From the NCBI GenBank assembly GCA_036785705.1, contig JAWUZG010000136.1, positions 2,655,792 through 2,719,791 of the forward strand: DNA of 64,000 nucleotides, in the 5' to 3' direction. Origin of the DNA: Acanthornis magna. Lineage: Eukaryota > Chordata > Aves > Passeriformes > Acanthizidae. The notes beneath the pieces were generated by a model. It made no database searches and was not told where the DNA came from. It saw nothing but the letters and a program-made list of their open reading frames with translations. Below are positions 33,101 to 64,000 of this stretch, in pieces. The translations under genes were made by a program, and so were the position numbers. How positions within the stretch are numbered: position 1 is the first letter of the stretch; each line of letters opens with the position of its first letter.

Positions 33101-33754
33101 AATGGAAATGGCAAGTCAGCACTCATGGCAATGACTTTTGGTTTAGAGCTCTTGCCTGAGTCTCAGAAACTCTTCAAATCATGCTGAAAATAATAGGAAA
33201 GATCCACATTTAACTTAGATGATGCAGTTTATGGCTCACTTCCCTTGGGAAGAAAATGTTCAGACAATAGGAGCTATGGTGGCGTACATTATTAAAATTG
33301 ATAATACTGCGCAGGAGTTGGAGTCCTTCCAGTTCATACAAGTACAAAAATTCAGAACATTGGGTCTCAGGTCACTGACTTGAACCAAAAGTAATGACAG
33401 CTGCAGTGAGGGTAGCAAATAATCACTGAGATTTAATAAAACAAGATGCAGTGTTATATTTTTCTTCTGTGATCTGCTCAGATTATCAAAAGGTAAATGG
33501 TGAAGGGACTTGCAGCTGAATCTGAGAATGCCAGTCAGCAAAGGGGTGTTTAATCCAGCGGATAAAGTCTTCAGAGGAACAGGTGGCGGAAGGTTATGCA
33601 CACCAACAGCCCTCAATTAGGTATGAGCTTGGAACAGTGAGGGTGCTTAATTCCTGAAGCAAATTTCCAGGGGAAGAGGCAAACTGTCCCTCAGCTGAAG
33701 GATGGAGCCATTTCTGGAAGATATTCTTCAGTGCTCAGCTGAGGAGTAACTGGG
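27106..33754. other. 6.6 kb of single-copy AT-rich DNA, no gene
   Basis: This is the longest quiet stretch of the window. Small features include a TATATATATA run near 27630 and an A-rich (AAAT)n patch near 27799-27820. Frames of 118 and 131 codons on the minus strand (33260-33616 and 32598-32993) have no motif or domain texture. One candidate conserved block at 32030-32290 is listed separately. Confidence 0.55.
32030..32290. other. Candidate conserved non-coding element
   Basis: A repeat-free block with many short transcription-factor-like cores: GACAAATATTATTAATCATT, TTGTTTGTCTTTG and GTGTATTAACTGG. Homopolymers are scarce compared with neighbouring DNA. This is an impression of conservation only; no alignment was available. 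Confidence 0.25.
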
Positions 33755-33842
33755 TGAATTTCATGGTCTGTGTGTAAGATACAGGAGGTCAGACTAGATG
33801 ATATAGTGGTTCCTTCCTGGCTCTAAAATCTATGAATCTATT
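33755..33842 (+). mobile_element. Old CR1-type LINE tail
   Basis: GATACAGGAGGTCAGACTAG, then ATGATATAGTGGTTCC, TCTAAAATC and TATGAATCTATT resembles the ancient archosaur/turtle CR1 tail (AGGTCAGACTAGATGATC with an AATGGTCCC continuation). It differs clearly from the younger CR1 tails elsewhere in the window and is strongly decayed. Confidence 0.65.
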
Positions 33843-34195
33843 AAAAATGCATTAGAAGCTGGAGGTGGTACCAGTATAATCCTGAGCCACTGCTGTGAGC
33901 AAGATCTAAATGCAGAATTCAAGCCTCCAAGCTTCCACATAAATGTGAACCAGCATTTACTGCAAGCACAGCAGTGAAATACTGAAGCAGCATCTTCTGA
34001 GAGAGTTGGCACTGCCTCTCGCTGTAAAAGTTTTCAGGTCTGGTCTTGGCTGAGACCTTCAGGCTTTACTGTAATATGTATGATCATAATGACAGGATTG
34101 AATTAGAGTGTTGTGCAGAAAGGCAGATCAGCTCCTTGGCTATTCCCCAAGGAATGGACACATCAGAGCTGATGGAAGCACAGTCCAGGCCCATG
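33843..34195. other. Single-copy flank of the minisatellite
   Basis: A non-repetitive sequence. The ATG at 34076 is the only in-frame ATG upstream of the array that enters one of its open frames. No promoter motif is evident. Confidence 0.5.
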
Positions 34196-37100
34196 GCAGC
34201 TGCGTGCCAGCCCTGCACAGGGTGTCACAGCTGTCCACCAGCCCTGCACAGGGTGTCACAGCTGCCCACCAGCCCTGCACAGGGTGTCACAGCTGCCCGC
34301 CAGCACTGCACAGGGTGTCACAGCTGTCTGCCAGCCCTGCACAGGGTGTCACAGCTGTCTGCCAGACCTGCACAGGGTGTCACAGCTGTCTGCCAGCACT
34401 GCACAGGGTGTCACAGCTGCACACCAGCCCTGCACAGGGTGTCACAGCTGCCCACCAGCCCTGCACAGGGTGTCACAGCTGCACACCAGCCCTGCACAGG
34501 GTGTCACAGCTGTCTGCCAGCCCTGCACAGGGTGTCACAGCTGCCCACCAGCCCTGCACAGGGTGTCACAGCTGTCTGCCAGCCCTGCACAGGGTGTCAC
34601 AGCTGCCTGCCAGCCCTGCACAGGGTGTCACAGCTGTCTGCCAGCACTGCACAGGGTGTCACAGCTGCCCGCCAGCCCTGCACAGGGTGTCACAGCTGCC
34701 CGCCAGCCCTGCACAGGGTGTCACAGCTGTCTGCCAGCACTGCACAGGGTGTCACAGCTGCACACCAGCCCTGCACAGGGTGTCACAGCTGCCTGCCAGC
34801 CCTGCACAGGGTGTCACAGCTGCCCGCCAGCCCTGCACAGGGTGTCACAGCTGTCTGCCAGCCCTGCACAGGGTGTCACAGCTGTCTGCCATCCCTGCAC
34901 AGGGTGTCACAGCTGCCCACCAGCCCTGCACAGGGTGTCACAGCTGTCTGCCAGCCCTGCACAGGGTGTCACAGCTGTCTGCCAGCCCTGCAGGGGTGTC
35001 ACAGCTGCCCACCAGCCCTGAACAGGGTGTCACAGCTGCCCACCAGCCCTGCACAGGGTGTCACAGCTGCACACCAGCCCTACACAGGGTGTCACAGCTG
35101 TCTGCCAGCCCTGCAGGGGTGTCACAGCTGCCCACCAGCCCTGCACAGGGTGTCACAGCTGCCTGCCAGCACTGCACAGGGTGTCACAGCTGCCCACCAG
35201 CCCTGCACAGGGTGTCACAGCTGTCTGCCATCCCTGCACAGGGTGTCACAGCTGCCCACCAGCCCTGCACAGGGTGTCACAGCTGTCTGCCAGCCCTGCA
35301 CAGGGTGTCACAGCTGTCTGCCAGCCCTGCACAGGGTGTCACAGCTGCCTGCCAGCCCTGCACGGGGTGTCACAGCTGTCTGCCAGCCCTGCACAGGGTG
35401 TCACAGCTGCCCACCAGCCCTGCACAGGGTGTCACAGCTGCCTGCCAGCACTGCACAGGGTGTCACAGCTGCCCACCAGCCCTGCACAGGGTGTCACAGC
35501 TGCACACCAGCCCTGCACAGGGTGTCACAGCTGTCTGCCAGCCCTGCACAGGGTGTCACAGCTGCCCGCCAGCCCTGCACAGGGTGTCACAGCTGTCTGC
35601 CAGCCCTGCAGGGGTGTCACAGCTGCCCACCAGCCCTGCACAGGGTGTCACAGCTGCCTGCCAGCCCTGCACAGGGTGTCACAGCTGCCCACCAGCCCTG
35701 CACAGGGTGTCACAGCTGTCTGCCAGCCCTGCACAGGGTGTCACAGCTGCCTGCCAGCCCTGCACAGGGTGTCACAGCTGCGCACCAGCCCTGCACAGGG
35801 TGTCACAGCTGTCTGCCATCCCTGCACAGGGTGTCACAGCTGTCTGCCAGCCCTGCACAGGGTGTCACAGCTGCCCACCAGCCCTGCACAGGGTGTCACA
35901 GCTGTCTGCCAGCACTGCACAGGGTGTCACAGCTGTCTGCCAGCACTGCACAGGGTGTCACAGCTGCACACCAGCACTGCACAGGGTGTCACAGCTGTCT
36001 GCCAGCCCTGCACAGGGTGTCACAGCTGCACACCAGCCCTGCACAGGGTGTCACAGCTGCCCACCAGCCCTGCACAGGGTGTCACAGCTGCGCACCAGCC
36101 CTGCACAGGGTGTCACAGCTGTCTGCCATCCCTGCATGGGGTGTCACAGCTGCCCACCAGCCCTGCACAGGGTGTCACAGCTGCCTGCCAGCCCTGCACA
36201 GGGTGTCACAGCTGCCCACCAGCCCTGCACAGGGTGTCACAGCTGCCCACCAGCACTGCACAGGGTGTCACAGCTGTCTGCCAGCCCTGCACAGGGTGTC
36301 ACAGCTGCACACCAGCACTGCACAGGGTGTCACAGCTGCCCACCAGCCCTGCACAGGGTGTCACAGCTGCGCACCAGCCCTGCACAGGGTGTCACAGCTG
36401 TCTGCCATCCCTGCACGGGGTGTCACAGCTGTCTGCCAGCACTGCACAGGGTGTCACAGCTGCACACCAGCCCTGCACAGGGTGTCACAGCTGTCTGCCA
36501 GCCCTGCACAGGGTGTCACAGCTGCACACCAGCCCTGCACAGGGTGTCACAGCTGTCTGCCAGCCCTGCACAGGGTGTCACAGCTGCACACCAGCACTGC
36601 ACAGGGTGTCACAGCTGCACACCAGCCCTGCACAGGGTGTCACAGCTGTCTGCCAGCCCTGCACAGGGTGTCACAGCTGTCTGCCAGCACTGCACAGGGT
36701 GTCACAGCTGTCTGCCAGCCCTGCACAGGGTGTCACAGCTGCCCACCAGCCCTGCAGGGGTGTCACAGCTGTCTGCCAGCCCTGCACAGGGTGTCACAGC
36801 TGCACACCAGCACTGCACAGGGTGTCACAGCTGTCTGCCAGCCCTGCACAGGGTGTCACAGCTGTCTGCCAGCACTGCACAGGGTGTCACAGCTGTCTGC
36901 CAGCCCTGCACAGGGTGTCACAGCTGCACACCAGCACTGCACAGGGTGTCACAGCTGTCTGCCAGCACTGCACAGGGTGTCACAGCTGTCTGCCAGCACT
37001 GCACAGGGTGTCACAGCTGCCCACCAGCCCTGCACAGGGTGTCACAGCTGTCTGCCAGCCCTGCAGGGGTGTCACAGCTGCACACCAGCCCTGCACAGGG

Positions 37101-37339
37101 TGTCACAGCTGTCTGCCAGCCCTGCACAGGGAGTCACAGCTGCACACCAGCCCTGCACAGGGTGTCACAGCTGTCTGCCAGCCCTGCACAGGGTGTCACA
37201 GCTGCACACCAGCCCTGCACAGGGTGTCACAGCTGCCCACCAGCCCTGCACAGGGTGTCACAGCTGTCTGCCAGCCCTGCACAGGGTGTCACAGCTGTCT
37301 GCCAGCACTGCACAGGGTGTCACAGCTGCCCACCAGCCC
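34196..37339. repeat. 31-bp minisatellite, about 102 tandem units
   Basis: This is a 3.1-kb head-to-tail array. Each unit is GGGTGTCACAGCTG, a variable six-base block, then AGCCCTGCACA, giving 31 bases. The variable block is mostly CCCACC, TCTGCC, CCTGCC, CACACC, CCCGCC or CGCACC. A second variable site gives AGCAC or ATCCC in place of AGCCC. Five units carry GCAGGGG and are 30 bp long (near 34990, 35113, 35608, 36753 and 37062). The first unit (CGTGCC) and last unit (ending in CCCATCTC) are degenerate, marking the array edges. Because 31 is not a multiple of three and the unit has no stop triplet, all three plus frames stay open for over 1,000 codons. Only one has an upstream ATG (34076, running to 37357); its conceptual product is a 31-residue Cys/His-rich repeat containing CTGCHSC. 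I read this as a non-coding variable-number tandem repeat, not a gene. Confidence 0.95.
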
Positions 37340-37880
37340 ATCTCAGGGGCAGCATGAGCAAATCCTGCCCAGCAGCAGCACCGAATGACTCTGCCTGCCC
37401 CCTCTGCACCCCTCCTCTGCCCCTGCTCAGGGCAGGCTTGGAGGCTTGGAGTAAAATGCCCAGGCAGAATTATAGAAATTATCCTTGCCTTGTGATTTCC
37501 AGAATAGCTAAATGACCTCTGTAAAACACAGCCTTCCACCCAAGCACCCCACCCTCGGTGGGCAGAAGAGAGGATGCTTTTAAGATAAACAGTTCGTCCT
37601 TCCTCTTCCTCTGGCTGGTGGAGGTCTCATGGTGCAAGTGATGGTCGTGATCCTTGTCGGGGGTGAAAGCAAAAGGGATTCCCCGGAGTGAGGGAGGTCC
37701 TGTTTCCCACAGAGGATAGGACAGAGATCCCCGAGCCCCACACTGAGCACAATGGTGTTACAAATGGGGACAGGAGCTTAGCTAAATCTCTGCCTGTGTC
37801 CAGGCCTTTGGCAGCAGCAGGAGCTCTCGTTGGGGTGGCAGCACCCCAAGACCTGCTCTTGTTCTCAAGTTCTTCAATAA
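37340..37880. other. Single-copy flank between minisatellite and LTR
   Basis: A moderately GC-rich sequence. The frames leaving the array terminate here (37357, 37388, 37515). No splice donor or other gene structure could be supported. Confidence 0.5.
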
Positions 37881-38443
37881 TGGCTGATTAGGTCTAATAT
37901 GACATAAATTATCATTTATTAGACACAGAAAATAACAGACATAAGACTTGGGACAAAACTATATACTATACAGAACAAATGCAAAACTAGGAATAGCTAA
38001 AAATGCAGCGTGCGAAAAGGTACCTATTGTTATTATTGTTATTGTTAACAAAGAAAAATACAATTTAGGAAATCAATGTGTCTTACCAAACTCCAATTTG
38101 GTGATGGAATACACATCAGAATCCTCACTCAGTCCTCAGGAAGTCACCACAGAGCTGCGTCCAGACTCTGGGGAGAGGCTTTTTCACGCTCCAGTGTCCA
38201 TATAGAAAAGTTTCTACCTCTGTGATATTTTGTGTCTTTTATAGTGTAAAAGTGTGTCTTTTGGTCATGTACTCATTCCTTTCATCTCTCTCCACGTCTT
38301 CTCTCCATACCAAGATGTGGATTCACGGTCGGAGATCTCAGACTTTCGGGCACCAAGAGATAACTTCTTGCTGGGCTTTTGACTCAGTCTGAGTTATCTA
38401 TGCACCAGCCGTGGGGTGGCAGGGGGAAGGGACATCCTGCCAC
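37881..38443 (-). mobile_element. Solo LTR, minus orientation
   Basis: On the minus strand the 563-bp element starts TGTGGCAGGATGTCCC and ends TAATCAGCCA, so it has TG and CA ends. It carries TATA (plus-strand CTTTTATAG, 38236-38244) and AATAAA (plus-strand TTTATT, 37915-37920), in correct order. The flanks AATAA (37876-37880) and AATAG (38444-38448) match in four of five bases, consistent with a 5-bp target duplication of an ERVL-like element with one later change. No viral coding sequence adjoins. A CR1 follows directly. Confidence 0.8.
38236..38244 (-). promoter_or_regulatory. LTR TATA box
   Basis: CTATAAAAG on the minus strand lies about 200 bases from the U3 terminus at 38443 and about 320 bases before the AATAAA signal. 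The placement fits an LTR promoter. Confidence 0.5.
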
Positions 38444-38448
38444 AAATA

Positions 38449-45119: not shown

Positions 45120-45440
45120 GACTGATTTACAGGAATTGATTTGCCCCAAGCAGGCCCAGAGACACAGTCAGAGCAGTTGGGATTTGCTTTATTCAGCGCA
45201 GGGTGTGGGGATTCACTCCTCCAAACACACACACCCCAGCACTTCCAACACCCAATATTATGGGTGACATTCATGAATATTCATCACATTTCCCAGGATA
45301 GGAGTGGTTATACAAATAATTTCTCGGAAATCATTAATATCATTAGCTGTGTGCCACACATGCACTGTGTGTCCTGGTGGTCTTTGGGGGTCTGCTCGTG
45401 ATGAAGATCTGTAGTCTTCATCACAGTGCACTTTTCACCT
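45120..45440 (-). mobile_element. LTR-like sequence, minus orientation, boundaries unclear
   Basis: AATAAAGC on the minus strand (plus-strand GCTTTATT, near 45186-45193) and a TATA-like TGTATAACC (plus-strand GGTTATACA, near 45307) stand in the right order and spacing for R of a leftward LTR. The plus-strand TTTATTCAGCGCAGGGTGTG resembles songbird LTR sequence from memory. I could not define ends or a target duplication, and the U3 may reach 45500 or beyond. Confidence 0.4.
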
Positions 45441-51540: not shown

Positions 51541-52115
51541 TTGGGCAGAGGGTTTGAACCATTTAAACCCAGCAATAATAACTAACCACAGGAGCTCATT
51601 TTTCTATCTTCTCATTTCTCCCTGTGCAACCATTAATCTCCCGCCTCAAAGAAGACACTGACTGCTCAAGGATGAACCAGGAACAAATTAATACACACAG
51701 TCCAACCAAGCTCTCAGGATGAGCCCAGCTGGACGTGCTCCAGCACAGGAGCAAAACACCTGCTTGATTTGGGAGGTATTGGCTGAGGTGCTGTGCTAAC
51801 ACATTTGTACTGCCGTGCTCTTTCATCTGTCTCGCCTTCCTGGGCTGAGTTACACTCCTGCCGTGCCCCAGCTCCGTGTGAGAGAGACAAACTGCTCGCT
51901 GAGGAGGTGGCTCAAGGCTGACCGAGGATCTGCCAGCTCTTGAGTGCGTCTGAGACAAATTCAAACGTGAGGGACGCTGTGTCTGTTATCATACAAAGGT
52001 GATGGCAGGGGAGGAGAGACAGAGCTGGGCTTTTCAAAATGTGGTGTTTTATTTCTCTGCTCATCTGCCTGTTCTCAAAATTTTAATGGTTTCTAAACAT
52101 TGCTCGTTGAAGAGA
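51541..52115. other. Single-copy DNA, no gene
   Basis: The minus frame at 51596-51964 (122 codons) is compositionally ordinary with no recognised motif. Nothing else is seen before the GGAGA array. Confidence 0.5.
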
Positions 52116-52354
52116 GGAGAGGAGAGGAGAGGAGAGGAGAGGAGAGGAGAGGAGAGGAGAGGAGAGGAGAGGAGAGGAGAGGAGAGGAGAGGAGAGGAGA
52201 GGAGAGGAGAGGAGAGGAGAGGAGAGGAGAGGAGAGGAGAGGAGAGGAGAGGAGAGGAGAGGAGAGGAGAGGAGAGGAGAGGAGAGGAGAGGAGAGGAGA
52301 GGAGAGGAGAGGAGAGGAGAGGAGAGGAGAGGAGAGGAGAGGAGAGGAGAGGAG
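52116..52354. repeat. (GGAGA)47 pentanucleotide array
   Basis: Forty-seven perfect GGAGA copies run from 52116 to 52350 with no interruption, followed by a partial GGAG. The plus strand is pure purine and the minus strand pure pyrimidine, so triplex (H-DNA) formation is possible. The array is stop-free in all frames on both strands, giving spurious Glu/Arg or Ser/Leu/Pro repeat frames of about 100-125 codons. The complete lack of interruptions argues for recent expansion. Confidence 0.96.
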
Positions 52355-52404
52355 GGAGCACTGGAGGAGGGCATGAAGGTGATACTGAACTCAGACAAAT
52401 GGGG

Positions 52405-63500: not shown

Positions 63501-64000
63501 TTTTTTTCCTTTGTGTATTGAGACAAAATGAAGGCGTTTTCAACTTTTTCATAAGCCTCAGGGAAAATTAATGTGAAGTAGCCAGTGGCATGCCCTTTCA
63601 GGAACTTATCAAAATTTTGGCCATCTATATTTAAATTCATTTTCGCCCCTTTTGTCCTAAAGGAGATACTGCCTTCTGGTTTGGGGGTGGGCATCTTTGC
63701 CTTCAGGGAATTTGTAGTTCATTGGGATAGGGATGTTTTACATCGATTTCTCATATCTCAGAGGAATTGTCAGTCCTCCCTGCTACTCTGTGTCCCACTG
63801 ATACATGAGGGTAAGACATTTCAGCGCAGTTAAGTCATCATTTACATCAGAATAATCTCATTTAACTGGACATATAATGGTGCTGAGGTCTTTGTCTGTT
63901 GATCACGGAGGGAGCAAAACAACTCCTTAATTCACCTGATGTTTAAATTGTTAAAATGAAGCATCTCATCCTTGCGAATGAAATAACAACTAAATCCCAA
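57515..64000. other. 6.5 kb of mostly single-copy DNA, no gene
   Basis: A (GTTT)n run with adjacent T tract lies at 58039-58078, and a small direct duplication of ATGCTTTATG sequences at 57762-57830. The longest unique frame of the window lies here: a TTG-opened 198 codons at 62099-62695, or 173 codons from the ATG at 62174. It shows no motif, signal peptide or domain. No repeat family or RNA gene is recognised. Confidence 0.5.

Follow-up and report, generated by a model that had tools for sequence, protein, structure and literature searches.

A locus-specific, GC-rich 31-bp minisatellite with interspersed CpG-form unit variants in an avian genome

The array, its unit and its edges

The window, by which we mean the whole 64,000-nucleotide stretch of DNA analysed, contains a tandem array of a 31-bp unit. 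Tandem Repeats Finder (TRF) places this array on the + strand with a period of 31, 101.5 copies and a score of 4872, which is not a chance match. Interspersed elements flank the array on both sides, and it does not seem to be part of either. The array, its distinctive units and its neighbours are as follows:

33742..33845, + strand: CR1-like 3' end tail, an interspersed element neighbouring the array and outside it; elsewhere in the genome, 6 places match it in part (77-87%)
34197..37339, + strand: tandem array of the 31-bp unit, from TRF and unit decomposition; approximate consensus CAGCTGYCYRCCAGCMCTGCACAGGGTGTCA, with A and G also occurring at position 8; 101 full units and a 17-bp partial unit
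34197..34227, + strand: first unit, from the unit list; a unique type with CGTG at positions 7-10
34972..35001, + strand: first of five 30-bp units, the others starting at 35095, 35590, 36736 and 37045; each has GCAGGGGTG in place of the GCACAGGGTG of full units
37323..37339, + strand: last unit, partial; its 17 bp match the unit
37756..38444, + strand: interspersed repeat with an LTR-like start, beginning TGTTACAAATGGGG, neighbouring the array and outside it; many genome copies, about 83-93% identical

The element at 33742-33845 is called CR1-like from the resemblance of its motif to a CR1 3' end; by our reading, several motifs in the window resemble bird CR1 3' ends, with up to 3 mismatches allowed.

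The 101 full units comprise 96 of 31 bp and five of 30 bp, followed by 17 bp of a 102nd. The hexamer CAGCTG occurs 102 times in the array, always at a spacing of 30 or 31 bp. The 30-bp form is consistent with loss of a C from a unit reading ACGGGG. G+C content is 65.3% in the array and 41.1% in the rest of the window. The first-pass annotation had described a large 31-bp minisatellite with five 1-bp-short units, and both points are borne out by the TRF row and the unit list. It had also described sharp edges and a start at 34196. The left edge is indeed sharp, the best unit alignment in the 101 bp of left flank having p 0.40, and the true start is 34197. On the right, the flank at about 37364-37410 has a weak, in-phase likeness to the unit that is not significant under any of three choices of stretch (p 0.28, 0.14 and 0.06); these bases are perhaps decayed units.

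The array is the largest tandem repeat of the window by TRF, and of the 40 kb directly to its left. Outside it, the next in size that TRF lists for the window are a GAGAG run of 247 bp, with a score of 487, and a TA-rich run of 133 bp; the earlier statement that the array far exceeds other tandem repeats here, simple microsatellites apart, is upheld. The GAGAG microsatellite lies at 52112-52358 with 99% matches. The largest tandem repeat of those 40 kb is an AGATAT-type 6-bp simple repeat of about 350 bp (L024, 6852-7209), in the 10 kb that adjoin the window on the left. Within the window, the best match to the unit outside the array is at 45344, with mismatches at 8 of 31 positions.

The window is the right end of a 2.72-Mb contig (C136) in an assembly of 1.48 Gb and 1515 contigs, and its right edge at 64000, where the contig ends, is 26.7 kb past the array. 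The assembly size and the CR1-like motifs are in line with a bird genome. A 26-base core of the unit, searched with up to 3 mismatches, finds 99 places in the bird's own assembly, 96 of them in the array (the pattern does not match the five short units) and 3 elsewhere. It finds none on the reverse strand, and a reversed control pattern finds none in the same assembly. The 3 outside places, each with 3 mismatches, have no 31-bp tandem within 400 bp on either side; at a minimum score of 30, TRF gives no row, one 13-bp row and no row, respectively. A 205-bp query from the array matches at least 21 places in the genome, each within the array. At the sensitivity tested, at which more diverged arrays could be missed, the unit is therefore private to a single locus and is not a dispersed satellite. 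Membership in a dispersed or named avian satellite family, which the tandem and homogeneous structure might suggest, is extremely unlikely given that neither query finds a second array in this genome and that four unit strings have no match in the literature searched; nor is the unit named in the titles and opening abstract lines covered there. The unit core has no match in viral contigs or prokaryote genomes, and a piece of the array has none among phages, these being collections that are not of birds.

The flanks of the array were also compared with the rest of the genome. Within the left flank (33600-34196), only 33742-33845 matches elsewhere, weakly and at 6 places; all 7 candidates, the element's own locus among them, were scored. 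The right flank (37340-38000) has 39 other matches among the 40 scored of 237 candidates, all from 37741 or later; most start at 37756 and two at 37741. No second copy of the stretches adjoining the array was found among the matches scored.

Coding, RNA and regulatory readings

The + frames stay open through the array. Two ORFs, of 1103 and 1135 amino acids (aa), the latter the longest, span it and a third, of 776 aa, takes in the greater part, so the array might be taken for a coding repeat. The 31-bp unit is, however, stop-free in every + frame, and the alternation of 31- and 30-bp units brings all frames into use. A protein-coding VNTR, that is, an exon with a kept frame, is rejected because the frame shifts from unit to unit with these lengths. 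A 245-aa piece has no relative at E <= 0.001 among 7998 candidates scored. A Pfam search of 24 six-frame pieces covering 9001-64000, with stops read as X, gives no family at E <= 0.01, over the array or elsewhere; introns, or genes without a Pfam domain, are possible in the stretch. The unit sequence yields these open frames as a by-product, and we give a coding function almost no credence. Searches for RNA families at gathering score and for tRNA genes also return nothing.

CAGCTG, which we read as an E-box-like motif for bHLH factors, is found 102 times in the array and 41 times in the other 60,856 bases. The array might thus be a regulatory platform, with bHLH factors binding E-boxes set roughly three helical turns from one another, or else an insulator or decoy. 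A 10-bp stretch of the unit is invariant across the 96 full-length units, which has p 0.037 if all sites are treated as equal. The value becomes p 0.11 once CpG-type sites are held fixed, and we reject the constant E-box as a sign of selection on this ground. The lack of any Pfam domain in 9001-64000 also counts against the regulatory reading, which we consider very unlikely. An array driven by hairpins is likewise rejected: four single strands, each one to three units long, were folded, and in no case was the fold better than that of the shuffled sequences (z +0.85 to +2.32).

Variation between units and its order along the array

There are 23 unit types, the four commonest of which make up 63 of the 101 units, and the mean pairwise identity between units is 91.6%, in agreement with the earlier description of a homogeneous array. 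Variation affects 12 of the 31 positions across the 96 full-length units, and most of it lies in the block at positions 7-10 and at position 16. The earlier count of two variable sites was therefore too low; the sites it noted resolve largely, though not wholly, into CG/TG/CA sites. Positions 9-10 read TG in 53, CA in 43 and CG in 5 of the 101 units. TG and CA are each one transition away from CG, on opposite strands, and are present in nearly equal numbers (binomial p 0.36). TA, expected 22.6 times from the base counts, does not occur, and none of 20000 shuffles was without it. The main variable site thus looks like one decayed CpG. Positions 22-23 of the full-length units read CA (93), CG (2) and TG (1), and the observed/expected ratio of CpG is 0.034 in the array against 0.182 outside. 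Taken together, these base patterns point to the decay of methylated CpG as the probable source of the CG/TG/CA variants. Block 7-10 is only partly accounted for by these forms, since positions 7-8 read TC in 45 units, CC in 35, CA in 17 and CG in 4.

Outside block 7-10, 43 of 2727 cells differ from the consensus (5 of the 43 hinge on how the 30-bp units are aligned), and 5 variants are singletons, few enough to fit the ongoing homogenisation previously suggested. By comparison, CG is absent at positions 9-10 in 96 of 101 units, an excess of about 60-fold over other cells. CpG sites mutate at about ten times the rate of other sites. Because the observed ratio is so much larger, independent decay of CpG unit by unit is ruled out, and descent of the variants appears to be shared. 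Of the 45 units with T at position 7, 44 carry TG, and all 17 units with A at position 8 carry CA; block 7-10 therefore seems to travel as a few lineages. A at position 16 and the 30-bp form are each found on more than one block 7-10 background, which implies either exchange within units or repeated mutation. All four allele combinations are seen at several pairs of sites, for example 9/16 and 9/22, which could likewise indicate short exchange, recurrent mutation being another possible cause. Among substitutions outside block 7-10, 4 of 8 kinds are C>A or G>T (unit positions 14, 15, 16 and 20), numbers too small for a test; such a pattern can arise from oxidative damage.

The order of the unit types looks near random. 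The longest string of unit types that recurs is 3 (also the value in 1130 of 2000 shuffles), and no string of four recurs. Recurring 2-unit strings number 58, against 58.3 in shuffles, and 3-unit strings 8, against 6.3. Pairwise difference does not rise over distance (Mantel r -0.005, p 0.57). Neighbours are alike in TG/CA/CG class in 33 of 100 adjacent pairs, where 45.3 are expected (single-test p 0.005). For full unit types the shortage of alike neighbours at lag 1 has p 0.011 when tested singly and 0.18 family-wise across 50 lags; the thirds of the array, taken separately, give p 0.43, 0.05 and 0.07. Lag 9 shows an excess (z 3.2, family-wise p 0.085), a hint that some steps involved several units. 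The neighbour pattern may be a relic of a 62-bp dimer, which a test over lags 1-6 suggests but does not prove (p 0.08).

Mechanisms of unit turnover were simulated in one lineage, under an infinite-alleles model that lacks interallelic exchange, and only runs with diversity near the observed value were kept. A first set had 18 settings of 30 runs each, with no run kept in 4 settings. Under single-unit slippage and local conversion, adjacent units resembled each other far too closely. The median longest string under block duplication was 7, 13 and 18.5 in the three settings that kept at least 10 runs, and random-donor conversion gave 3 to 4. In a second set of 17 settings, a longest string of 3 or less was obtained in 58% of 60 kept runs with conversion tracts of one unit. 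For mean tracts of 1.5, 2, 3 and 5 units the figures were 35% of 69, 4% of 56, 2% of 59 and 0 of 53. Such short strings never arose from block duplication alone, whether blocks reached 5 units (0 of 26) or 20 (0 of 21). When conversion was mixed with small block events, at a share of up to a fifth, 40% of 42 runs gave them, and such a mixture is possible under these models. Short strings and the observed lag 1 occurred jointly at a frequency of zero in 16 of the 17 settings and 0.03 in the other; none of the models tried reproduces both the short strings and the shortage of alike neighbours. With modest confidence, the simulations suggest that short exchange dominates.

These results bear on the proposal, made in the first-pass annotation, that the array expanded recently. 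Expansion by block duplication or by slippage of neighbouring units would agree with the high identity, the small number of private mutations and the lag-9 excess. That no recurring string is longer than 3 units speaks against recent duplication of blocks and is consistent with short, non-reciprocal exchange. Pure slippage and block duplication simulated at matched diversity left strings of at least 5 in every kept run, and slippage and small blocks, though not larger blocks, gave neighbours more alike. We therefore reject multi-unit block duplication as the main process, its simulated recurring strings being too long, and regard recent expansion by either route as quite improbable.

A further alternative is that the length of the array or the order of its units is an artefact of assembly or polishing, in which mis-joined or short-read-polished repeats scramble the types over read-sized distances. 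Exact repeats of up to 135 bp are present within the array, so short reads map ambiguously, and polishing with such reads could by inference produce a scrambled order; the contig also ends not far beyond the array. Against this, no exact repeat within the array exceeds 135 bp, so accurate long reads could resolve it. The adjoining stretches, moreover, lack a second copy among the matches scored, and the block 7-10 haplotypes are intact and not freely mixed. We consider an artefact unlikely.

Proposed origin and comparison with known minisatellites

We favour, with a probability of roughly 0.7, the reading that the array is a GC-rich minisatellite specific to this locus, in DNA where no coding domain was detected, and that short exchange spread lineages of CpG decay within it. 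Local amplification of the unit would have come first. Decay of methylated CpGs to TG or CA in a small number of founder units would then have given rise to the haplotype lineages TCTG, CCCA and CACA. Short, non-reciprocal exchanges spanning about a unit at most, such as gene conversion and possibly between alleles, may have spread and interspersed these lineages, their mixing outpacing the build-up of new point mutations. The array would be a by-product of recombination and repair, with no host function inferred. A stronger version, in which the array records very short, distance-independent conversion with the CpG-decay lineages as tags, tracts of about one unit (31 bp) or less, and unlike neighbours favoured by a bias that our simple models fail to yield, is unlikely.

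As one locus, analysed as one assembled copy, the array leaves present understanding unchanged. Should its length vary between birds, it could serve directly as a single-locus marker, because the adjoining stretches have no second copy among the matches scored. The CpG-form variants tag unit lineages, and the order of units in several alleles would reveal the mode of exchange in an avian minisatellite. To our knowledge, birds lack PRDM9-directed hotspots.

The array is a single-locus minisatellite of classical type, an ordinary kind of tandem repeat. Its 31-bp unit, present in 101 full copies, falls within the 9-100 bp range of minisatellite units. Its G+C content places it in the GC-rich classical subclass, as do its interspersed variants (23 types, longest string 3, no spatial trend). 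Dispersed avian satellite DNAs are also arranged head to tail in tandem. Satellite families fill many loci, whereas the array is one 3.1-kb locus to which 96 of the 99 core matches belong, the other 3 being isolated, although more diverged arrays could be missed.

The nearest likeness in general features is to the classical GC-rich human autosomal minisatellites mapped by MVR, such as D7S21, which share the 9-100 bp unit, the GC-richness and the interspersed variants (PMC2599865 and PMC2363947). The structures of many autosomal minisatellites are called highly interspersed in PMC2599865. The same paper describes human MSY1 (DYF155S1), which resembles the array in unit size (25 bp) and number (48-118). 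MSY1 differs in being 75% A+T and in having its variants in blocks, and according to that paper units of other than 25 bp were never observed; the array, unlike MSY1, is GC-rich and interspersed and contains 30-bp units. Switches of single units from one type to another, without change in length, were seen directly in MSY1 in sperm (1 mutant) and in blood (PMC2599865), and are a direct precedent for the short exchange proposed here.
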